A stretch of DNA of 25,184 bases. It comes from a virus. The stretch is taken from the IMG/VR virus record IMGVR_UViG_3300031975_001055, positions 1 to 25,184 of that record. One strand, given 5' to 3'. The notes below the pieces were generated by a model that had not been told where the DNA came from, searched no databases, and saw only the letters and a program-made list of their open reading frames with translations. A program made the position numbers and the translations under genes. The first letter of the stretch is position 1, and each line of letters opens with the position of its first letter. This document shows, in pieces, positions 80 through 21,156 of this stretch.

Positions 80-86
80 GGTGTCT

Positions 87-1493
87 ATGAATACAGAAGT
101 AAATTGTGTAGAGTGCGATGTAGACATAGCAGGAAACTCTGAGCATGACCATGACCTAGAGGTATGTTGTGATTGTATAGAAGAGAAGTACGATAGCTGT
201 CAACATTGCGACCAACTATTTCCTAAGAGTGATTTGATTGAAGCAGAAGATGAGCCAACTTGCGAAGATTGTTTCAGAGAGTATTACGCAGAGTGTAATG
301 GTTGTGGCGATATAATAACTCAGGATGAGACTTATTATTCTGAGAGTTCAGGCGATGACTATTGCGAGGATTGTTACTACGAAACATTTACGAGATGTGA
401 AGGCTGCGATTATGAAATGCAAAGCGACTATGCACATTATAGCGATAGCGATGGGTGCTCTTACTGTGATGATTGTTACGAGCATAATGAAGATGTAGAC
501 CTAGATTCCTATGGTCAAGTAAGCATACATCGCTCAAAGTCTTTCGAGAGTAATAAGTTTCACAGAGCAGTTGGCATAGAGATAGAAGCCTGTAATCAAA
601 ACTACAATGAACTAGAAAAAAACATATATTCTAGAAACTTTGAGATAACAAAGAACTGGAGAATAGTTAGTGATGGTAGTATACATCCGAGTGGAGAAGA
701 TGATATAGGTAAAGAGTTTGTAACTAGAGGTGGTATGAGTGGAGACGAGCTTTATCTATCAATCAATAATATGACTAGCATACTTCAACGAGAGGGTTGG
801 TATGTAAATAAGTCTTGCGGTCTCCATGTTCATGTAGATGCTAGAGACTTAAATGCGAGAGAACTTGCATATATACTCATGGTAGCTAAACTATGTGAGC
901 CTGTTATCTATAAGATGATGCCTCAATCTAGAGACAGCAGTAGATGGGCAAGACGTATACCTATGAGCTTAGAAAAGATAAATAGGATACACGATGAAGA
1001 TGACTTTATAGACTCATGGTATCGCTCTCATGGGACATCTCCTAGTATGGAGAAGTACAATGATGCTAGATACTGTGGATTCAATATGCACTCTAGAATA
1101 ATACATGGCTCGATAGAGTTCAGACATCACTCTGGAACTCTCAATCCTAGTAAGATAATAAATTGGATAGAGATTTGTCAGTCTATTATCAATACAGGTC
1201 TAGAGTTATACAGATTGATAGAGGATAAGGAAGTTGGATTACAAGGTATTACTCTAGCTAGAGCTAAAAAACTTATGAGAGTTTGGAGACTTATACTTAG
1301 CAAGGATGATAAGATGAAGTTGTTTAACCTTAAGACTATGAACAGTGCTCTAGAGTTAAAGACATCATTAAGAGCTCATATAAATTATAGAGTTGGTAAG
1401 TTCTATGATAATAATAAACAAGAGGATTATAGAGTTATAGGATATAACCCTATACGAATGTTACCAATAGTTGAAAGACATATAAGTTTTTAA
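87..1493 (+). CDS. zinc-finger/amidoligase fusion protein
   Basis: 468 residues in two parts. Residues about 7-131 hold at least eight CxxC pairs with acidic linkers (CVEC, CCDC, CQHC, CEDC, CNGC, CEGC, CDDC), which look like tandem treble-clef or LIM-like zinc fingers. Residues about 158-370 carry the signature motifs of the Amidoligase_2 family: VGIEIEA at 162-168, SDGSIH at 195-200, CGLHVHVD at 244-251 and IEFRHHSGT at 343-351. Members of this glutamine-synthetase-fold family are predicted ATP-dependent COOH-NH2 ligases that form amide bonds on peptides or metabolites; the substrate here is unknown. The ATG at 87 is chosen over an in-frame GTG at 81 because GAGG lies 5 bases before it. The domain assignment is firm. 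A role in modifying a host or phage protein, with the fingers choosing the target, is inference. Confidence 0.85.
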   Translation: MNTEVNCVECDVDIAGNSEHDHDLEVCCDCIEEKYDSCQHCDQLFPKSDLIEAEDEPTCEDCFREYYAECNGCGDIITQDETYYSESSGDDYCEDCYYETFTRCEGCDYEMQSDYAHYSDSDGCSYCDDCYEHNEDVDLDSYGQVSIHRSKSFESNKFHRAVGIEIEACNQNYNELEKNIYSRNFEITKNWRIVSDGSIHPSGEDDIGKEFVTRGGMSGDELYLSINNMTSILQREGWYVNKSCGLHVHVDARDLNARELAYILMVAKLCEPVIYKMMPQSRDSSRWARRIPMSLEKINRIHDEDDFIDSWYRSHGTSPSMEKYNDARYCGFNMHSRIIHGSIEFRHHSGTLNPSKIINWIEICQSIINTGLELYRLIEDKEVGLQGITLARAKKLMRVWRLILSKDDKMKLFNLKTMNSALELKTSLRAHINYRVGKFYDNNKQEDYRVIGYNPIRMLPIVERHISF

Positions 1494-2817: not shown

Positions 2818-3387
2818 TTGAATAGTGTATTTGAGAAACTAGATAGCATAGATGTCTCTACCAAAGCTGAAAAGAAAGGTAGGTTTACCTATCTTAGTTG
2901 GGCTTGGGCAGTTAGAGAACTGTTGAGAGTTGCTCCAGACTCTACGTGGGTAGTCCACGAGTGGGGAATTGAGGGCAATAAGCAGCCGTATATGCAAACA
3001 GAAGCAGGGTGCTTTGTTAAAGTCTCTTTAACAGTTGATAATATAACAAGAGAGCAAGTACATCCTGTATTAGATAATAGAAATCAACCTATAAAAGAGC
3101 CTAATGCTTTTGAAATAAACACATCTATACAAAGATGTTTAGCTAAAGCTATCGCTCTACATGGTCTTGGTCTGTATATATTTGCAGGAGAAGATTTGCC
3201 TGATAACTCTATAACGAGTAACGATGTATCAGAGCTATTTAATCTAGCTGATAAGGTAGGTAAAGAAGAAGCAGAGAGAGTTAGAAAGGCTTTAGAAGTT
3301 GGAAAGATAAACAAGAGTAATCTAGATAAGACAATGTCTGCCCTAGAAAATCTCGCAATTAGTAAAAAGGAGAATGATAATGAGTGA
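2818..3387 (+). CDS. Sak3-like single-strand annealing protein (DUF1071)
   Basis: 189 residues. The N-terminal FTYLSWAWA (about 23-31) and the segment SIQRCLAKAIALHGLGLYI (103-121) followed by AGEDLP are the conserved features of the DUF1071/Sak3 family, phage recombinases that anneal complementary single strands. The C-terminal 60 residues are charged and helical and less conserved. The start is TTG at 2818, placed by AAGGAG eight bases upstream; I see no better ATG. The gene overlaps the next one by a few bases. With the exonuclease before it and the SSB-like protein after it, it completes a three-gene strand-annealing module. Confidence 0.85.
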   Translation: MNSVFEKLDSIDVSTKAEKKGRFTYLSWAWAVRELLRVAPDSTWVVHEWGIEGNKQPYMQTEAGCFVKVSLTVDNITREQVHPVLDNRNQPIKEPNAFEINTSIQRCLAKAIALHGLGLYIFAGEDLPDNSITSNDVSELFNLADKVGKEEAERVRKALEVGKINKSNLDKTMSALENLAISKKENDNE

Positions 3388-3952
3388 TGTAAACTCTATA
3401 ATGGGAAGTAATGAAGCATACTATGACCCATCTAAAGATGTTCCATCTTTAATTCCAGAGGGTATGTTTAAAGCATACGCTACTAAACTGTCTGAGAGGG
3501 AGGTGATTGTAAGAGACAAATACGTAGCAGATGTATTCGATATTGAGTTCGAACTAGCAGAAGAGAACAAAGGAGAGAGTGTAGAAATAGGTAGTAAAGC
3601 TATAGACAAGGGTGAATATGCTGGTAAAACAGTACGCTCTAAAGGTTTCTTTAGATTTAAGAAGCCAGACCCAAGCAATTCTCTACATGATGGATTAGAG
3701 ATGAATACAGCGTCTAATAAATCCTATATGGAATTATTAAATTCATTCTCTATTGAGACTGAAGAGGACAAAGAAGGTCGCTACTTCCTTCCACATATTA
3801 ATGAGAGTGACGTTAGTGGCAAAGCTGTTATACTAGATATTGTTCATGAGAACTGGACTTCTAGAGAGGGCGATGCTATGGTCACACCAAAAGCTAAAGC
3901 TATCTTTATATGGGAGGGACAAGCTCCTAAGAAAGAAGAGCTGCCGTTTTAA
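3380..3952 (+). CDS. putative single-stranded DNA-binding protein
   Basis: 190 residues from the ATG at 3380. An in-frame ATG at 3374 is only one base from the GGAG, so 3380, seven bases away, is the better start. The middle (about 30-160) is rich in predicted beta strands, compatible with an OB fold. The last residues, KKEELPF, imitate the acidic tail of bacterial SSB (DDIPF), the part that docks partner proteins. Its place right after the exonuclease and annealing genes supports the SSB role. I do not see a recognisable SSB core motif, so a related DNA-binding family is the alternative. Confidence 0.65.
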   Translation: MSDVNSIMGSNEAYYDPSKDVPSLIPEGMFKAYATKLSEREVIVRDKYVADVFDIEFELAEENKGESVEIGSKAIDKGEYAGKTVRSKGFFRFKKPDPSNSLHDGLEMNTASNKSYMELLNSFSIETEEDKEGRYFLPHINESDVSGKAVILDIVHENWTSREGDAMVTPKAKAIFIWEGQAPKKEELPF

Positions 3953-3963
3953 TTAGTTGATTA

Positions 3964-4015
3964 AGAGGGGTGGTGTTTTTATTTAGTTATATGACATTCC
4001 TTTTTCCACCCCTCT
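3964..4015 (+). promoter_or_regulatory. 10-bp perfect hairpin after the SSB-like gene
   Basis: AGAGGGGTGG at 3964-3973 and CCACCCCTCT at 4006-4015 form a perfect 10-bp stem around a 32-base U-rich loop. It is among the most GC-rich stretches of this AT-rich arm and lies in the 85-base gap before 4038. No U tract follows the stem, so it is not a textbook terminator; an attenuator, a processing site or a protein-binding site are alternatives. The arms resemble those of the hairpin at 8211-8241. Confidence 0.5.
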
Positions 4016-4037
4016 ATACCATAAACTTAGGATATAT

Positions 4038-4322
4038 ATGAATTTATGTGATTGTTGCCCACCAAACAAAGAAGAAGAGCTAGATATAGTAACTATACCA
4101 ATAGACTATAGAAGCTCTAATAATTTTTGTGGTGATATTAATTTTGTTAATTATAGTAAAGATAGGAGGTATATCTCTATGAGCTGTAGAGATTGTTTTA
4201 AAGATTTAGACCCATTAAAAGATACAATGCAAGACAGAGTATGTCAACGATGCTCTAATAAAAACGAAGAATTTTGGAACAGTATAATTAAATTATTGGA
4301 GGATAGCTATAGTGAAGTTTAA
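4038..4322 (+). CDS. small cysteine-rich early protein
   Basis: 94 residues, function not recognised. Cysteines form the clusters CDCC near the N-terminus, CRDC at about 50-53 and CQRC at about 69-72, enough for one or two zinc sites. The tail (FWNSIIKLLEDSYSEV) is a predicted helix. The ATG follows TAGGA at five bases. It is the first gene after the hairpin at 3964-4015 and begins a run of small genes. A zinc-binding regulator or host-takeover protein is plausible but not shown. Confidence 0.55.
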   Translation: MNLCDCCPPNKEEELDIVTIPIDYRSSNNFCGDINFVNYSKDRRYISMSCRDCFKDLDPLKDTMQDRVCQRCSNKNEEFWNSIIKLLEDSYSEV

Positions 4323-4482
4323 ACATATAGAAGAGTTAGAGTCTATGTATGTGACAAAAGGAAACGGCAGCACTGATGATGACATAGAAGAATTTAAGAA
4401 GTTTATATGGAGGCAGGCAGAGATTAGAGGTCTTGTCATCAATACGAAAGAGAGTCAAGGTGAAAATAGAAACTTGGAATGA
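4312..4482 (+). CDS. small unknown early protein (GTG start)
   Basis: A 56-residue frame, VKFKHIEELESMYVTKGN onward, opening at a GTG nine bases after a strong GGAGG, and overlapping the end of the preceding gene by 11 bases. The product is acidic in the middle (GSTDDDIEEFKKF) and has no cysteines. Function unknown. It ends inside the start region of the next gene. Support is the SD and the overlap pattern typical of this operon; the short length keeps confidence moderate. Confidence 0.5.
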   Translation: MKFKHIEELESMYVTKGNGSTDDDIEEFKKFIWRQAEIRGLVINTKESQGENRNLE

Positions 4483-4681
4483 GATTATGGATAAGATGTG
4501 TAGTCTTATGGGTTATGACAAAGGCATACAAGCCTGTGTAGACGCTAAGCGTGAGATAAAACCTAGCACACCTATCTACGAACTATCAAGGAGAGACGAT
4601 AAGTATTTGATACATAAACTTAGAAAGACATACACAAGTTACAAGAATTCACCAGCTTCGTACGGATACGAGGCTGAATAA
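4433..4681 (+). CDS. small unknown early protein, start uncertain
   Basis: Up to 82 residues. The frame is open from a TTG at 4433, but the AGAGG there is only two bases away. Alternatives are a GTG at 4460 with GAGAG five bases upstream, and an ATG at 4487 just past the stop of the overlapping small gene. The C-terminal part (SRRDDKYLIHKLRKTYTSYKN) is basic and helical and could bind nucleic acid. No family recognised. It is the last gene before the 160-base intergenic stretch at 4682-4840. Confidence 0.5.
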   Translation: MSSIRKRVKVKIETWNEIMDKMCSLMGYDKGIQACVDAKREIKPSTPIYELSRRDDKYLIHKLRKTYTSYKNSPASYGYEAE

Positions 4682-4840
4682 TAATTGGCGAGTCGAGTTA
4701 TAACATTTTTAACCCATTTTTATTCATGAAGAACCTAGCTCTATTGAGAGCGGTGGATATTTTATAAGAAAACAAATTGGCGTTATAAAAAGGATAACTT
4801 AAGAGTTGGCGCTCACTCGCCAAAACCTTTTGGAGATAAT
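4682..4840. promoter_or_regulatory. intergenic element with TTGGCG repeats and competing hairpins
   Basis: The longest non-coding stretch in the left arm. TTGGCG occurs three times in the same orientation (4685, 4777, 4806). The complement ACTCGCCAA at 4815-4823 can pair with TTGGCGAGT at 4685-4693 over 9 bp, or locally with TTGGCG at 4806-4811, but not both. AT-rich segments separate the copies. This could be a transcription-control element, a phage operator or part of a replication origin; the sequence alone does not decide. No convincing ORF lies within it. Confidence 0.45.
4806..4823 (+). terminator. short TTGGCG/CGCCAA hairpin, possible weak terminator
   Basis: A 6-bp perfect stem with a 6-base loop (CTCACT), followed by AAACCTTTT. 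It sits 17 bases before the ATG at 4841, so it could act as a weak terminator or as an element controlling translation of that gene. Confidence 0.35.
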
Positions 4841-5077
4841 ATGAAAAAGAAAAAACAAAAACCTACTATGAGAGAAGTATATGCAGATGTAGGAACACTG
4901 TTTAAAGTAGTAAGTTCTATGGGTTCTACTATGGAATCTATGAGAATTTTACTAGAAAACTATTTGGAAATGAAAAAAGATACTGATAAATTAGCTAAGT
5001 TTATAGAGAACAAGGCAAAGGAATTAAAGAATGTTAATCAAAGAAGCGAAGAGTCTAAAGAAAATAAACCTGCCTAG
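4841..5077 (+). CDS. small basic coiled-coil-like early protein
   Basis: 78 residues beginning MKKKKQKPTMREVYADVG. The middle to C-terminal part (TMESMRILLENYLEMKKDTDKLAKFIENKAKELK) is a long amphipathic helix that could form a coiled coil. No cysteines, no membrane segment, no family recognised. The ATG follows GGAG at a normal distance and lies just downstream of the hairpin at 4806-4823. Its end overlaps the next gene by 47 bases. Confidence 0.55.
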   Translation: MKKKKQKPTMREVYADVGTLFKVVSSMGSTMESMRILLENYLEMKKDTDKLAKFIENKAKELKNVNQRSEESKENKPA

Positions 5078-5348
5078 TTGTTGTTCTGTCTGTTTAAAAA
5101 GAGATAGTGATTACTGGTACGCTATACTATCTTGTGAGACACCAACAAAAATAGAGATGTATGAAGATGATGATGATAAGATGCCTCGTATGGAAGACCA
5201 TAGGCACTATGTACTATGCAAGAGATGCTCTAAAAGTTATAATAATATGAGTATAGCAGAGCAGAACTATCGTAGATTAAATTTTGCATACATAAGCAAG
5301 GAATGTAAATGCACAACATTTGGAGAGATATATGTCAAGCAAAAGTAA
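5031..5348 (+). CDS. small zinc-binding-like early protein
   Basis: 105 residues with a CCSVC group near residue 17-21, CKRC at about 64-67 and CKC near 94, separated by an acidic stretch (MYEDDDDKMP). The cysteine pairs suggest a zinc-binding fold of the HNH/treble-clef kind, but I see no complete HNH active site. AAGGAA lies seven bases before the ATG at 5031, which supports that start despite the 47-base overlap with the preceding gene. It overlaps the next gene by 17 bases. Function unknown. Confidence 0.55.
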   Translation: MLIKEAKSLKKINLPSCCSVCLKRDSDYWYAILSCETPTKIEMYEDDDDKMPRMEDHRHYVLCKRCSKSYNNMSIAEQNYRRLNFAYISKECKCTTFGEIYVKQK

Positions 5349-5643
5349 ACAAAAGGGAAGCAGATTTGAAAGAGAGTGTGTTGATATAGCTAAGAATAAA
5401 GATATTAAATCTATTAGAGCCTGGGGTTCTGATGGTAGGTCTTTAGGTCTTACAGCAGAAGTCGACATACTGATAGATAAATACAAAGCACAATGTAAAG
5501 TAAGAAAGAGAGTAGCAAAATGGTTGAAACCAAGCGAGGAAGTAGACATTCAGTTAGTAAAAGAAGACCGTGGGCAAATTTACGTAATCCAGAGGTACGA
5601 AGAATGGTTAGAAATGGCGAGTGTTCTCCTAGCTCAGAAATGA
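5332..5643 (+). CDS. Holliday-junction resolvase-like nuclease
   Basis: 103 residues from the ATG at 5332 (GGAGAG just upstream; an in-frame TTG at 5320 lies before the SD and is rejected). It begins with SKQKGSRFERE, where E13 fits the first catalytic position, followed by AEVDILI with D45 and AQCK with Q54 and K56. This E...D...QxK set is the PD-(D/E)XK active site of archaeal/phage Hjc-like resolvases and related small nucleases. Such enzymes cut branched DNA intermediates made during recombination and replication, before packaging. Its neighbours, small cysteine-rich proteins and then the helicase, agree. The QxK form of motif III and the small size favour a resolvase; a restriction-like nuclease is the alternative. 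Confidence 0.72.
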   Translation: MSSKSKQKGSRFERECVDIAKNKDIKSIRAWGSDGRSLGLTAEVDILIDKYKAQCKVRKRVAKWLKPSEEVDIQLVKEDRGQIYVIQRYEEWLEMASVLLAQK

Positions 5644-5945
5644 CACCATTAACAGGATGGAAAAGTGAGACTGAAAGCCTTTATCTCTGTAGAGATGTAG
5701 CTAAGCAAGAGTCTTTGGTCTACTATTTTAATGAAGAATGGTTTGATTTTGAATCACTAACAAAAGAAAATAGAAGTGAAGGAAGTTCAAAGCTTAAATA
5801 CTCTGATTCACTTAAGAGGTGTGAGTATTGTAAAAAAGGCTGGTGTTATTTTAGTGAAGGAACTGTAGATGATTTTTATTATTTAGACAATGAAAGCTTT
5901 GCTAATATTCCACTAGAGAAAGAACCTTGCCCTAACTGTGAGTAG
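5604..5945 (+). CDS. small cysteine-rich early protein
   Basis: 113 residues from the ATG at 5604, chosen because AGAGG lies eight bases before it. The frame is open further upstream to 5520, but that part only mirrors the resolvase gene in another frame. An ATG at 5640 overlapping the resolvase stop is the alternative. CEYCKKGWC in the middle and CPNCE at the very end form a plausible zinc ribbon. The last cysteine knuckle overlaps the GTG of the next gene. No family recognised. Confidence 0.55.
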   Translation: MVRNGECSPSSEMTPLTGWKSETESLYLCRDVAKQESLVYYFNEEWFDFESLTKENRSEGSSKLKYSDSLKRCEYCKKGWCYFSEGTVDDFYYLDNESFANIPLEKEPCPNCE

Positions 5946-6327: not shown

Positions 6328-7662
6328 ATGTATAATTTAGAAACAGAAGAAGCTTTATTATTCTGCGTATTAAATAGACCAGAATGTATAGAAGATATAA
6401 GACGATGGATACCAGAGGAAGATGTTTTTTATAATTCTTTTAATAAAAAAATATGGAAAGAATGTTATAAGCTTTATAATAATAAAGAGCCAGTAGATGC
6501 CATATCGGTATCAAGAGCTCTACCAAAAAATAAATTAGATGGTAAGCTCCCCTCTTACGAGTTAACGAGGATATCAACTAATGGAGTTACAACTTCTAAC
6601 GCAGAGTATTTAGCTAAGAATATATACGAAGATTATCTTAGAAGAAATATAGTTAACAACTGTCATAAGCTAATCGGTAAAGCTAAGGACAATGCTGTAG
6701 ATTTTGATGACATAATAGAGCAGATAAATACAGATACATCTAATGTAATAAACACTAAGCCTTCTAAAAATGAATTTAATCTTAGTGAATTGTTGCATGA
6801 TACAGATGATTCTATATTTAAAAGTAAAGGTATTATAAAGACAGGTTTAAATACTCTTGACTCTGTAATACATGGAATGACAAGAGGAGAGATAACAATA
6901 GTAGCTGGTAGACCAGCCAATGGCAAGACAACTGTTGCTGCTAATATAGCTAGGCAACTAGTATTGTCTGGTAAAAGAGTTATGATGTTCAATAGAGAAA
7001 TGCCCAACACAGAGATGATGAAGAAGTTTATTGCTATGGAATCTATGAGTCTATCTTATAGAAACCTAAGACATGGAGCTACACTATCATCTACTGAAGT
7101 GCATACTGCTATGCAGTTTATCAAGGATAACTATCAAGATAAATTATTTATGTATGACTCTATAAGTGACTTACAATCCACGTTCGAAGAAATAAAAAGA
7201 ATAAAACCTGATGTTGTGATTGATGACCATATAGGTCTTATTGAGTTTCCATCTAGAGATACTAGAGACTTAAGGCATAAGATAAGGGAAACTACAATGA
7301 AATATAAATGGCTTGCTAAGGCACATGATATGTGTGTAATATTAGTATCGCAGCTTAATAGAAATATAGAGCATAGGATAGATGCTACACCTAGGTTATC
7401 AGACCTAGCGGAGTCTGGTTCATTGGAGCAAGATGCAGAAATGGTGGTGTTCACACACTATCCTTATGTTTCTAGATTTGGTCAGGCAGATTCAGACGGA
7501 AGAGTATGGGGTAAGAATGAAATAATGTTAATCGTATCTAAGAATAGATATGGAACCCCTGGAAGCGTAGAGATGGGATACTCTGGTGATAGCTGTTTAT
7601 TATTTGACGATATAAGGAGTGCAAAAGATTACGAAGAAAAGAAGAGGCAACTAAGTGCCTGA
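6328..7662 (+). CDS. dnaB: replicative DnaB-type helicase
   Basis: 444 residues, the usual length for DnaB. Residues about 1-100 match the DnaB N-terminal domain (ETEEALLFCVLNRPE, DAISVSRAL). The RecA-like motor has Walker A GRPANGKT at 194-201, Walker B VVIDD at 296-300, SQLNR at 341-345 and SDLAESGSLEQDAEMV at 358-373, all diagnostic of the family. It unwinds DNA at the replication fork as a hexameric ring. No primase domain is fused, and no separate primase or polymerase is seen here. The gene starts at ATG right after the stop of the zinc-ribbon gene and overlaps the metallopeptidase gene by 8 bases. Confidence 0.92.
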   Translation: MYNLETEEALLFCVLNRPECIEDIRRWIPEEDVFYNSFNKKIWKECYKLYNNKEPVDAISVSRALPKNKLDGKLPSYELTRISTNGVTTSNAEYLAKNIYEDYLRRNIVNNCHKLIGKAKDNAVDFDDIIEQINTDTSNVINTKPSKNEFNLSELLHDTDDSIFKSKGIIKTGLNTLDSVIHGMTRGEITIVAGRPANGKTTVAANIARQLVLSGKRVMMFNREMPNTEMMKKFIAMESMSLSYRNLRHGATLSSTEVHTAMQFIKDNYQDKLFMYDSISDLQSTFEEIKRIKPDVVIDDHIGLIEFPSRDTRDLRHKIRETTMKYKWLAKAHDMCVILVSQLNRNIEHRIDATPRLSDLAESGSLEQDAEMVVFTHYPYVSRFGQADSDGRVWGKNEIMLIVSKNRYGTPGSVEMGYSGDSCLLFDDIRSAKDYEEKKRQLSA

Positions 7663-8035
7663 TAATATCAAGAGAGTTGTAGCTAAGTGGGTTATGAATC
7701 AATACGACTTAGACCCAATAATAAGTATAGAGAAAGATATAGGTTGTGATGGTATGTATATACCAGACCAAGATAAAGTATTGATTAGTGCAGACTTAAA
7801 GCCAGAGCTGTTAATTAAAACTGTATTACATGAAGCAAAGCACGTAATGGATTCTATGAAATACGGAAGAGTTAAGTTTCAAAAGAAATATAATCAGGCT
7901 GGTACTGTTGCTGCTAACTGTGGAAATAGCCCATATTTAGACAATAAGTGGGAGATAAGAGCAGAGAAATTTGCAGAACAAGAAATGAAAAACAAATGGA
8001 AAGATTTAGACAATGGTAATAGTGAAGAAGACTAA
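7655..8035 (+). CDS. HExxH zinc metallopeptidase-like protein
   Basis: 126 residues starting at a GTG that overlaps the helicase end. LHEAKHVMD carries HEAKH at 59-63, the HExxH zinc site, and a downstream glutamate in WEIRAEKFAE (E100 or E104) could be the third ligand, as in the ImmA/IrrE (M78) and related small peptidases. ImmA-like peptidases cleave repressors or other regulators, but no substrate can be named here. No signal peptide, so it should act in the cytoplasm. It overlaps the bS21 gene by 23 bases. Confidence 0.65.
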   Translation: MPDNIKRVVAKWVMNQYDLDPIISIEKDIGCDGMYIPDQDKVLISADLKPELLIKTVLHEAKHVMDSMKYGRVKFQKKYNQAGTVAANCGNSPYLDNKWEIRAEKFAEQEMKNKWKDLDNGNSEED

Positions 8036-8189
8036 AAATAAAACAGTTCAGAAAATGATTACTGAGTTCAAAAAGAAAGTAAGGGAAGTTGGTATTAAAG
8101 AAGAGCTGGAAGAGCGTCGTTATTACACTAAGCCCTCCCAGCTCAGGAGGGAGAGAGAGAAAAATATTAAAAGATTAAATAGAAAATAA
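8013..8189 (+). CDS. rpsU: phage-encoded ribosomal protein bS21 homologue
   Basis: A 58-residue frame. Residues 17-58 follow the bS21 pattern closely: FKKKVREVGIKEELEERRYY, then TKPSQLRREREKNIKRLNRK, matching the family's helix-turn-helix with the [EKR]xRRxYYxKPS core and a basic helical tail. bS21 sits at the 30S platform near the anti-Shine-Dalgarno end of 16S rRNA and helps start translation; phage copies are known and are thought to replace the host protein and favour phage messages. It is shorter than E. coli bS21 (71 residues), lacking part of the tail. It is the last gene of the early arm, overlaps the metallopeptidase gene by 23 bases and lies just before the convergence hairpin. Confidence 0.85.
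   Translation: MVIVKKTKNKTVQKMITEFKKKVREVGIKEELEERRYYTKPSQLRREREKNIKRLNRK
8133..8151 (+). promoter_or_regulatory. GC-rich hairpin with an SD-like arm inside the bS21 gene
   Basis: CCCTCC at 8133-8138 pairs with GGAGGG at 8146-8151 around a 7-base loop. The right arm includes AGGAGG (8145-8150), the full Shine-Dalgarno sequence, with no start codon at a usable distance downstream. A competing 7-bp pairing, GAGCTGG 8103-8109 with CCAGCTC 8138-8144, uses the loop and part of the left arm. It may be a consequence of the codons for KPSQLRRE. Confidence 0.4.
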
Positions 8190-8210: not shown

Positions 8211-8241
8211 GGGGTGTAGTTTTTTTGTCTTGCTGCACCCC
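8211..8241. terminator. hairpin between convergent arms, likely terminator
   Basis: GGGGTGTAG at 8211-8219 pairs with CTGCACCCC at 8233-8241 (9 bp, one G-U) around a 13-base U-rich loop, in the 58-base gap between the last plus-strand gene and the last minus-strand gene. Downstream on the plus strand comes TAAATTTTAT, a weak U tract. Position and structure suggest a terminator that may serve both directions. Confidence 0.55.
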
Positions 8242-8247
8242 TAAATT

Positions 8248-9012
8248 TTATCTAGGAGGAATAGGCTCCTGCATTTGTGGAGAAAATAACCTCATCATAG
8301 TTTCTGCATCCATACGATTTCTACGTACATCAAGAGGTAATGGCTCTTGCATTTGTGGAGAAAGTAACCTCATCATAGTTTCTGCATCCATTTTAGGTTC
8401 TAATTGGTTTGAATCACCAAACATTTTTAAAAGTTCTTCAACAGTGCTAGACTCCATATTTTTTTGTCTTGTCACATCGACGTTAGTTGCATCCCTATCA
8501 GATTTTGATAAGACTTCAACTAAATCAGATTCTCTTAAAATATCATCTATCGACTTAGACCGAGGTGATTTTTCTAAGCTAGGACTAGACTCTCTACCTG
8601 CAAGAACTTCAGCTAGAGATGTCATAACTCCAAAACCCTGGTCAACCCCTCGAGGCATCCTGCGTTTAGTATTGTCAGGAAGTTGAGGTGTTCCTGTACT
8701 ATTATCTGGATTGTATATTCTTGAAAATATATCTGTAACCTCATCTTGGTCTCTATCTATATTGCGAAGGTGACTTTCATTTTTCTTAACTAAATCAATA
8801 AACTTGTCATACTCTTTTGGCGACAGCTTAGCTTCTCGTATTATATCTGCGATGTTGAATTGCTCACCTTTGAAAAAATCGTAACCTATTCTGGGGTCAT
8901 AGTCCTCTCTGTCGCGAGGGTCTTCACCATAACTAAGTTTATATGCTCTTTCGTTAATAGACTGTTCACTTTGTGGGAACATCTTTGCTAGCATTTTTTG
9001 TATCTCATTCAT
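8248..9012 (-). CDS. unknown late protein with C-terminal tandem repeat
   Basis: 254 residues, last gene of the late arm. Charged and polar throughout, with no membrane segment. The C-terminus contains two copies of MDAETMMRL(L/F)SPQMQEP, 26 residues apart, ending three to four residues from the stop. Earlier parts include short helical motifs separated by flexible linkers (SIDDILRESDLVEVLSKSD; STVEELLKMFGD), the look of a protein with several short binding motifs, such as a scaffold, a virion-associated protein or an adaptor. No family recognised. It overlaps the preceding 37-residue gene by 8 bases. Confidence 0.65.
   Translation of the reverse strand: MNEIQKMLAKMFPQSEQSINERAYKLSYGEDPRDREDYDPRIGYDFFKGEQFNIADIIREAKLSPKEYDKFIDLVKKNESHLRNIDRDQDEVTDIFSRIYNPDNSTGTPQLPDNTKRRMPRGVDQGFGVMTSLAEVLAGRESSPSLEKSPRSKSIDDILRESDLVEVLSKSDRDATNVDVTRQKNMESSTVEELLKMFGDSNQLEPKMDAETMMRLLSPQMQEPLPLDVRRNRMDAETMMRLFSPQMQEPIPPR
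8264..8391 (-). repeat. 78-base-period direct repeat in coding sequence
   Basis: Two 50-base copies, 8264-8313 and 8342-8391, differ at two positions. The period of 78 bases keeps the reading frame, giving the duplicated 17-residue peptide at the end of the 254-residue protein. The two mismatches give one synonymous and at least one other change, so the duplication looks fairly recent. Confidence 0.85.
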
Positions 9013-16645: not shown

Positions 16646-16837
16646 CTAACTCCTTGTAAATTCTAAATAGTGCCATGCACCAATTTCTTTTCTGTAAAGC
16701 CTAAGCTTACCATCTGGTGTTTTTACTATTCTTTCTTCCCCATCATTTCCAGAATCGTTTGATGGATATCCTTGTTGTAATTTTGTTTTAACTCCCTTAG
16801 AGTTATATAAAAATCTTTTTTCTCTATCAATAGACAT
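16646..16837 (-). CDS. 63-residue unknown virion-module protein
   Basis: A short protein (MSIDREKRFLYNSKGVKTKL; ending KLRLYRKEIGAWHYLEFTRS) with a beta-rich C-terminus. It starts with a TAATG overlap after the 782-residue gene and stops just before the next SD. No family named; its exact packing between two structural genes supports that it is translated and late. Confidence 0.55.
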   Translation of the reverse strand: MSIDREKRFLYNSKGVKTKLQQGYPSNDSGNDGEERIVKTPDGKLRLYRKEIGAWHYLEFTRS

Positions 16838-19974: not shown

Positions 19975-20263
19975 TAATACGACCTTTAAGGTACGCTAAA
20001 TCATCGGTTACATCGTTTAACTCTTTAACTATATCTTCTCTATGTCTCTGTCCTATATCGTCTGACTTGTTCCATCTCTCTATTAACTTTATAGTTATCC
20101 CTTCTACATTCTTTATTGTAGATTCTATCTTAGCTATCGCTTGTCTTATGTTATCTAAATCTTCATTTTGAGCTCTTTGGCTCTTCATTAGATTAACTAT
20201 CATCAGTACAAACAAAGATACGATAACACCTACAGCACCGTACTCAGCGTATGTTTCAATCAT
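19958..20263 (-). CDS. one membrane segment plus coiled coil, holin- or spanin-like
   Basis: 101 residues. Residues about 8-27 (EYGAVGVIVSLFVLMIVNLM) form one membrane helix; the rest is charged coiled coil (QNEDLDNIRQAIAKIESTIK onward). This layout fits BhlA-like holins and also inner-membrane spanins (Rz-like). The gene overlaps its neighbours on both sides, within a run of small genes leading to the endolysin. The choice between holin and spanin cannot be made here. Confidence 0.55.
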   Translation of the reverse strand: MIETYAEYGAVGVIVSLFVLMIVNLMKSQRAQNEDLDNIRQAIAKIESTIKNVEGITIKLIERWNKSDDIGQRHREDIVKELNDVTDDLAYLKGRINGKAG

Positions 20264-20402
20264 TTAATACTTTCTTCGTCGCTTTTAAACCAATTAAAAA
20301 TAAAAATCCAAGCATTACTTGCAGGAGCATCTCTTGTCTAATACTAAACGCTAGCATAACAGACATAATAAATTTTCCTGCAAGAATTGCTTTATCAATC
20401 AC
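20256..20402 (-). CDS. 48-residue membrane protein
   Basis: Starts at GTG sharing the G of the previous TAG (TAGTG) and overlaps the next gene's ATG by 8 bases. The protein reads VIDKAILAGKFIMSVMLAFS, a hydrophilic turn, then MLLQVMLGFLFLIGLKATKK: one or two hydrophobic helices and a basic tail. Such tiny membrane proteins are common in phage lysis regions as holins or antiholins. Overlaps on both sides are the main support. Confidence 0.5.
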   Translation of the reverse strand: MIDKAILAGKFIMSVMLAFSIRQEMLLQVMLGFLFLIGLKATKKVLND

Positions 20403-20581
20403 TATTTCCCAACAATCTTTTGGGCTTTATTATGTGACTGTTTAAAGGTTTTACCCTTTCTCATTTCTGATGCCATCATTGACAAGTGCTTTTTAGTATG
20501 ATGAACCTTATGTTTCTGCATTTGCTTCTTTTGCATAACAGATAATCCATTAAGGTTTACATTCTTTAAGTCCTTAGCCAT
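20402..20581 (-). CDS. 59-residue lysine/histidine-rich protein
   Basis: Begins MAKDLKNVNLNGLSVMQKKQ and ends KTFKQSHNKAQKIVGK, with a central KHKVHHTKKHLSMM. Highly basic, soluble, with a helix-turn-helix-like alternation of short helices. I recognise the SFKQSHNxAxKxVGK ending as common in marine phage small proteins but know no function. The stop overlaps the GTG of the next gene. Confidence 0.55.
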   Translation of the reverse strand: MAKDLKNVNLNGLSVMQKKQMQKHKVHHTKKHLSMMASEMRKGKTFKQSHNKAQKIVGK

Positions 20582-20622
20582 GCTACCAACTCTTCTTTCT
20601 AATCCAAAGTATAAAAAACATA

Positions 20623-20883
20623 CTAACCTTTATCAGACTCTTGTTCTTTATTGTAAGGATATTTATTTTCCTCAGACAGTGCAGCTTTAAGTCCATCTAC
20701 AAACGCTTGTCTGCCAAATTGTAACTGCTGAAGATTAAATGTTGTTGTATCAATCTTTCTGTTTAAATCAGCAATGTGATTAACCATTGTTTTTTGGTCA
20801 TCGTTCATTGAATTGATATCGTACTCTTTCCCATCAAGGTTTAACATTGGGGCATTTTCTTTTTTATTTTCTTTTTTAGCCAT
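20623..20883 (-). CDS. small unknown protein (DUF6447-like?)
   Basis: 86 residues. LNLDGKEYDINSMNDDQKTM is followed by a helical segment rich in N, Q and L (NHIADLNRKIDTTTFNLQQL) and a short acidic tail. The DGKxYDxxSxxDxxK beginning with a following coiled coil resembles a family of short phage proteins I know as DUF6447, function unknown; the match is from memory. AAGGAAATATA before the ATG is a good SD. The position is within the late small-gene cluster. Confidence 0.6.
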   Translation of the reverse strand: MAKKENKKENAPMLNLDGKEYDINSMNDDQKTMVNHIADLNRKIDTTTFNLQQLQFGRQAFVDGLKAALSEENKYPYNKEQESDKG

Positions 20884-20892
20884 TATATTTCC

Positions 20893-21156
20893 TTATTTTC
20901 TTTTTAGTCCTAACTTTTGCATTAGGGTTTTGTTTTCTTCCTCAAGTTTCTGTATATGCTGCGATTCCATTCCTTCAACACTAGCAGTTAACACAGTAAC
21001 TTTATCTTCCAAATCTTCTATTCTTCTTCCTTGTTCTGCAAACTTCATCTGTGCTTGATACCAAGAGCCAGTAACGATAGCTATTAGTATACCAGCTTTA
21101 ATTAATAGAGCTACGCTTATATGTACTTCACTATTTGCGTTAATTGGTTTATTCAT
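20893..21156 (-). CDS. one membrane segment plus coiled coil, spanin- or holin-like
   Basis: 87 residues. Residues about 15-34 (ALLIKAGILIAIVTGSWYQA) form a membrane helix; the remainder is a charged coiled coil (GRRIEDLEDKVTVLTASVEG, then SQHIQKLEEENKTLMQKLGL). The architecture is that of an inner-membrane spanin (Rz-like) or a phage holin with cytosolic coiled coil. It overlaps the upstream gene by 8 bases. Together with the protein at 19958-20263 the phage has two such architectures. Confidence 0.55.
   Translation of the reverse strand: MNKPINANSEVHISVALLIKAGILIAIVTGSWYQAQMKFAEQGRRIEDLEDKVTVLTASVEGMESQHIQKLEEENKTLMQKLGLKRK

Follow-up and report, generated by a model that had tools for sequence, protein, structure and literature searches.

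A phage bS21 gene with a 3' half apparently conserved as an RNA hairpin on the opposite strand, at the meeting point of two opposing gene blocks

Two questions are raised by this locus: whether a 58-codon open reading frame at the junction of two convergent gene arms is a phage gene for ribosomal protein bS21, and why the 3' half of this frame varies so little at the nucleotide level among related phages. The window, i.e. the whole stretch of DNA that was analysed, is an IMG/VR virus record of 25,184 bases. Its plus-strand arm, which ends in bS21, includes an amidoligase-like gene, a PD-(D/E)XK nuclease, a Sak annealing protein, DnaB and a HEAKH peptidase, and the arm running in the opposite direction, on the minus strand, carries structural and lysis genes. 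The early arm is purine-rich, with a GC skew of about +0.25, and the skew switches at the arm junction. The genes next to the junction are as follows.

6328 to 7662, plus strand: DnaB-type replicative helicase of the early arm (DnaB_C, 2.6e-50)
7655 to 8035, plus strand: HEAKH putative metallopeptidase gene, its last 23 nt overlapping the start of bS21
8013 to 8189, plus strand: bS21 coding sequence, 58 aa, ATG to TAA, the end of the early arm
8248 to 9012, minus strand: last gene of the convergent late arm, 254 aa, no PHROG match

The HEAKH peptidase matches phrog_87 (metallo-protease, 1.1e-4) and, weakly and below the cut-off, DUF6782 (20.4 bits). In the protein encoded by 8248–9012 on the minus strand, the C-terminal peptide MDAETMMRLxSPQMQEP occurs twice, and the length of the protein varies among relatives. 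The gene at the window start (81–1493, plus strand) encodes a 470-aa protein that has an amidoligase_2 domain (2.2e-24) and is rich in cysteine in its N-terminal part.

The protein translated from positions 8013–8189 of the plus strand, MVIVKKTKNKTVQKMITEFKKKVREVGIKEELEERRYYTKPSQLRREREKNIKRLNRK, matches the Pfam profile PF01165 (Ribosomal_S21) at E 2.2e-7 with 30.9 bits, above the gathering cut-off of 27, residues 7–54 aligning with positions 5–52 of the 55 in the profile; it also matches PHROG 21469, 'ribosomal protein S21', at E 6.1e-8. The original prediction, made from the sequence letters, of a 58-residue phage bS21 is borne out by these significant matches. The cut-off of the equivalog model TIGR00030 (S21p), 28.95, was narrowly missed (27.4 bits), so that this model gives no ground for claiming strict equivalence to cellular S21. 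The hits of phmmer in the PDB, taken to E 1, are bS21 chains from bacteria, plastids and mitochondria (best E 1.5e-4). The predicted YYxKPS signature is present as YYTKPS at residues 37–42, fitting a core motif of this type in a short basic protein, and Y38, K40, P41 and S42 are invariant over 19 phage bS21 proteins. An AlphaFold2 model of moderate confidence (pLDDT 74.5, pTM 0.40) has helices at residues 12–26, 28–36 and 43–57. When this model was searched with Foldseek, all 10 of the 10 matches were chains from ribosome entries (best TM 0.71, none with E below 0.001, such weak E-values being expected at 58 residues), and the several that could be identified by chain through the PDB sequence search are bS21 or its organelle homologues. 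Codons 2–30 evolve under purifying selection in related phages (dN/dS about 0.16). The profile matches, the same frame in relatives, the gene order and the purifying selection exclude a chance open reading frame, and 8013–8189 is confirmed as a genuine phage bS21 gene.

The frame is carried by about 20 IMG/VR loci, in which bS21 is 67–95% identical to the window copy; wherever the contig is long enough, dnaB and the peptidase precede it, and a convergent arm lies downstream. That bS21 closes the early arm and overlaps the HEAKH peptidase gene was likewise correctly read from the window. A 93-aa open reading frame separates the peptidase and bS21 in L035 (2223–2504), the sole break of that adjacency seen. 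In the record IMGVR_UViG_3300030708_000851 (80,282 bases; loci L007, L025 and L038), two diverged sets of dnaB, peptidase and bS21 are separated by about 45 kb, their dnaB copies being 88% and 66% identical to the window dnaB, so that the record either contains the genomes of two related phages or is an assembly chimera. Between window positions 19980–21129 and the relative G008, blocks of 602 and 547 nt are identical, although the dnaB of G008 is only 68% identical, which probably reflects recent gene exchange in that part of the late arm. Among annotated phages, a bS21 homologue was found at E up to 0.1 only in HTVC008M and in Microcystis phage Mel-JY01, and a single-protein genome scan with bS21 confirmed no relative. 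On the related contig G002 (38.4 kb, with a longer late arm) there are genes for terminase, portal and capsid, whose relatives in the phage collection are all remote, and the structural proteins of the window's phage group have no or only remote matches there. The nearest phage by DNA is Methylophilales phage Venkman, which shares only 140 bp of the Sak gene, too little for a host assignment.

Phage bS21 is an already known kind of gene, as the original prediction stated, with previous cases in HTVC008M, Kolga and lake Bacteroidetes phages; the window copy adds one example, from a replication arm. For Pelagibacter phage HTVC008M, incorporation of the phage bS21 into E. coli 70S ribosomes has been shown, and E. 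coli ribosomes containing it gave about 5% of the normal product in vitro (PMC6375957). This protein (AGE60443) is 46% identical to the window bS21 over 55 residues; HTVC008M differs, however, in being a 147-kb phage with same-strand genes after bS21 and no trace of the conserved element described below. By its description, the Pelagibacter siphophage Kolga is a similar case, a marine phage isolate that also has bS21 (PMC8163748). In the huge phages of freshwater lake Bacteroidetes, whose bS21 is believed to substitute for that of the host, the gene is expressed late and is surrounded by those for terminase, capsid and portal (PMC9723584), whereas the window bS21 stands at the end of the dnaB arm, a place that suggests early synthesis. 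The bS21 of F. johnsoniae has a C-terminal tyrosine, Tyr54, whereas residues 43–58 of the window protein, QLRREREKNIKRLNRK, contain no tyrosine; good Shine-Dalgarno (SD) sites are present on many genes of the window's phage. Thus, neither the C-terminal tyrosine stacking on A1534 nor the little use of SD sites that characterise the Bacteroidota-type, anti-SD-sequestering bS21 was found here, and a mechanism of that type is unlikely.

The constraint within the bS21 gene escaped the original prediction. Codon usage in the related phages gives good support to the view that codons 31–50 are constrained as nucleic acid. In 13 representative phages, 8 of the 10 residue-invariant codons among codons 41–50 were also codon-invariant, compared to 18 of 233 in dnaB and the peptidase (probability about 1e-8 under the per-residue background, assuming independent sites), and the synonymous sites of dnaB, the peptidase and the rest of the bS21 gene vary freely in the same phages. 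The longest identical run is 20 nt in bS21, whereas no other early gene among those tested exceeds 11 nt. The invariant codons of this stretch include CCC, TCC and AGG-AGG, and the fixed codons are rare in the AT-rich phage of the window (CCC 2.1%, TCC 2.1%, CTC 2.5% and AGG 13.6% of their synonymous sets). A pattern allowing all codons for the peptide KPSQLRREREK was found in exactly 19 places, all of which also match the fixed 21-mer CCCTCCCARCTYAGGAGGGAG. The conserved block is present in a single copy per genome, and the sequence is missing from more distant phages whose bS21 is followed by genes on the same strand.

Several origins of this pattern can be set aside. The 21-mer is absent from all of 84,980 prokaryote species genomes, and derivation from a host or from an attachment site was rejected on this basis. 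None of the five remaining frames stays open over a conserved length throughout the members, so an overlapping protein gene is not the cause of the constraint. Programmed frameshifting after the GGAGGG/A-run was rejected as well, the −1 and +1 frames stopping soon and at differing lengths. The locus might hold an ordinary phage bS21 gene and nothing else, the conservation of its 3' half stemming from recent exchange or from the protein and being itself functionless. The phage group is mosaic, as the 602-nt identical block shared with G008 illustrates, so some identity could be recent, and the peptide KPSQLRREREK itself is nearly invariant in the clade; however, rare synonymous codons cannot be fixed by protein constraint, dnaB, the peptidase and the first half of bS21 vary freely in the same phages, and the few variable sites of the block follow clades, its edges being identical in all members. 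We regard this as the least probable of the explanations weighed here. Instead, the conservation of the 3' half is apparently due to a conserved RNA hairpin on the opposite strand, where the opposing gene blocks meet. Its parts, all inside bS21, are the following.

8103 to 8115, minus strand: 3' arm of the hairpin, GCUCUUCCAGCUC
8116 to 8131, minus strand: hairpin loop, 16 nt, partly variable
8132 to 8144, minus strand: 5' arm of the hairpin, GAGCUGGGAGGGC
8145 to 8164, minus strand: invariant CU-rich tract, 20 nt, reading UUUUUCUCUCUCUCCCUCCU on that strand, immediately 5' of the hairpin

On the minus strand, a continuous hairpin of 12–13 bp is predicted in every member, at −22 to −27 kcal/mol. 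Compared to GC-matched synonymous recodings, its folding has z-scores of −3.3 to −4.6 (0–1 of 500 recodings as low), versus only −1.1 to −2.5 for the plus strand of the same stretch. In every row, 12 of the 13 minus-strand pairs are standard, several by way of G-U, where the plus strand has A-C mismatches; the thirteenth pair, at the helix end, is lost in one clade. Codon choices beyond the needs of the protein are matched by the pairing, namely GAG, GAA and GAG at codons 31, 33 and 34, and CGN at codon 35. Covariation is slight, a two-sided change being seen in one pair, as it also is in 115 of 500 shuffles, so that the case for the hairpin is carried by codon choice and folding energy. Two constant G-U pairs occupy positions fixed by amino acids, and part of the strand bias could therefore be incidental. 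The invariance of the CU-rich tract (8164–8145) is not explained by the long helix itself, and CU-rich antisense sequence is general in the purine-rich early arm. No match at the gathering score was found in Rfam anywhere in the window, and a covariance model revealed no convincing second copy of the element in these phages; its hits in distant bS21 genes were weak (E 0.01 and above) and fell in the same codons, probably as a consequence of shared coding sequence.

The same letters could instead act in the bS21 mRNA, on the plus strand, as an autoregulatory element in which CCCUCC-GGAGGG mimics the SD/anti-SD duplex beside bS21, or as a switch between alternative hairpins. Autoregulation of bS21 by SD/anti-SD pairing is known for rpsU of Flavobacterium (PMC9976891) and lends this explanation a precedent. 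In all members, two mutually exclusive plus-strand hairpins differ by no more than about 4 kcal/mol, and the GGAGGG and CCCUCC arms are invariant, synonymous changes being confined to the loop. However, the plus strand beats the GC-matched recodings only modestly and forms the long helix with A-C mismatches, the element is located in the 3' half of the gene rather than at its start, and many genes of the window's phage use ordinary SD sites. An mRNA element is thus improbable, with only the functionless origin ranking below it.

A DNA site, such as an origin or a packaging or recombination signal overlapping bS21 at the arm junction, would agree with the single copy per genome, the fixed position at the skew switch, and the combination of an inverted repeat with a purine tract. 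Yet pairing that is kept through G-U on one strand points to RNA, and the terminase genes are distant from the element (in L119, near 2900–5800), which makes a packaging site here unlikely. We place this explanation next above the mRNA element, and still among the improbable ones.

How would an RNA hairpin on the minus strand, which is the strand of late transcripts, be used? Between the two arms lies one further hairpin.

8211 to 8241, plus strand: gap hairpin GGGGTGTAG..CTGCACCCC, its sequence differing among relatives, with T-rich DNA following on the plus strand

T-rich DNA follows this hairpin only on the plus strand, so that it is probably the terminator of the early arm, ending the early transcript, even though an automatic terminator scan with a loop limit of 8 nt did not call it; the minus-strand sequence of the gap also forms a hairpin, with no U run after it. 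In two relatives (L022 and L024) the gap is reduced to 2 nt and the gap hairpin is gone, with the hairpin inside bS21 being kept, and late transcripts would accordingly have to end within bS21 or beyond. Intrinsic (Rho-independent) termination at the minus-strand hairpin was rejected, given that no conserved U run follows it (TTCTTT, TAGTAG and TATTAG in different members). A Rho-dependent terminator would have a CU-rich, G-poor tract and would cease to act without Rho; a tract of this composition is present 5' of the hairpin. A related arrangement is known from E. coli, where the 3' end of galE forms inside the next gene, galT, by Rho or RNase E and is held by a hairpin (PMC11925234). As in that case, the order seen here, first a CU-rich tract and then a strong hairpin, would be compatible with Rho-type termination in which the 3' end is held by the hairpin. 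The two cases are analogous in how they would work, a message 3' end lying inside the neighbouring gene and being held by a hairpin; they differ in that galE and galT are co-directional whereas the neighbour is convergent here, and in that the process in the window is inferred from sequence only.

These observations are suggestive of one gene with two functions, a phage bS21 on the plus strand and a boundary element for the 3' ends of late transcripts on the minus strand, to which we assign a probability of about 0.5; for the function of the element, a role as such a boundary is, from the sequence comparisons, the most likely of the several considered. Under this proposal, the phage bS21 would substitute for the host protein on 30S subunits, beside the anti-Shine-Dalgarno tail, and would favour initiation on phage messages; replacement and a shift in start-site choice were also put forward in the original prediction, and the entry of HTVC008M bS21 into E. 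coli ribosomes is the precedent for them. Leftward late transcription would cross the gap into bS21 and terminate, in a Rho-like manner, within or beyond the CU-rich stretch, and at the junction of the arms the hairpin would define or protect the late message's 3' end.

Two further explanations also assign a role to the minus-strand RNA. A late RNA running across bS21 could pair with the bS21 or early message and shut it off late, consistent with the antisense orientation of the hairpin to bS21 and its position downstream of the late arm. Perfect complementarity, however, requires no conserved sequence and would leave the fixed codons unexplained, and no convincing dedicated promoter was found on the minus strand, which has one weak site at chance level. 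Antisense regulation is therefore unlikely, albeit ranked above a DNA site. The other explanation is that bS21 is dual-coded, the minus strand giving a structured RNA with a specific role that ties ribosomal-protein replacement to the early/late switch; that role could be the end of the late transcript, or an action on translation by CU-rich RNA with an anti-SD-like CCUCCU. This stands first among the alternatives but is nonetheless doubtful.

The embedded minus-strand element is the new part of the locus, bS21 itself joining an established list, and to our knowledge, based on a limited literature search, nucleotide-level RNA constraint inside a phage ribosomal-protein gene has not been reported. 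The element offers a compact, testable case for the possibility that each of two convergent phage operons has its transcripts end within genes of the other, and it cautions against taking the synonymous sites of a phage bS21 gene to be neutral. A separate long identical run was observed in the late arm: in a 63-aa open reading frame on the minus strand (16646–16837), 23 nt are identical in nine sequences, exceeding the 20 nt of bS21, and the conserved stretch covers the gene start near 16806–16837, with the AT-rich sequence ATTGATAGAGAAAAAAGATTTTTATA kept in relatives.
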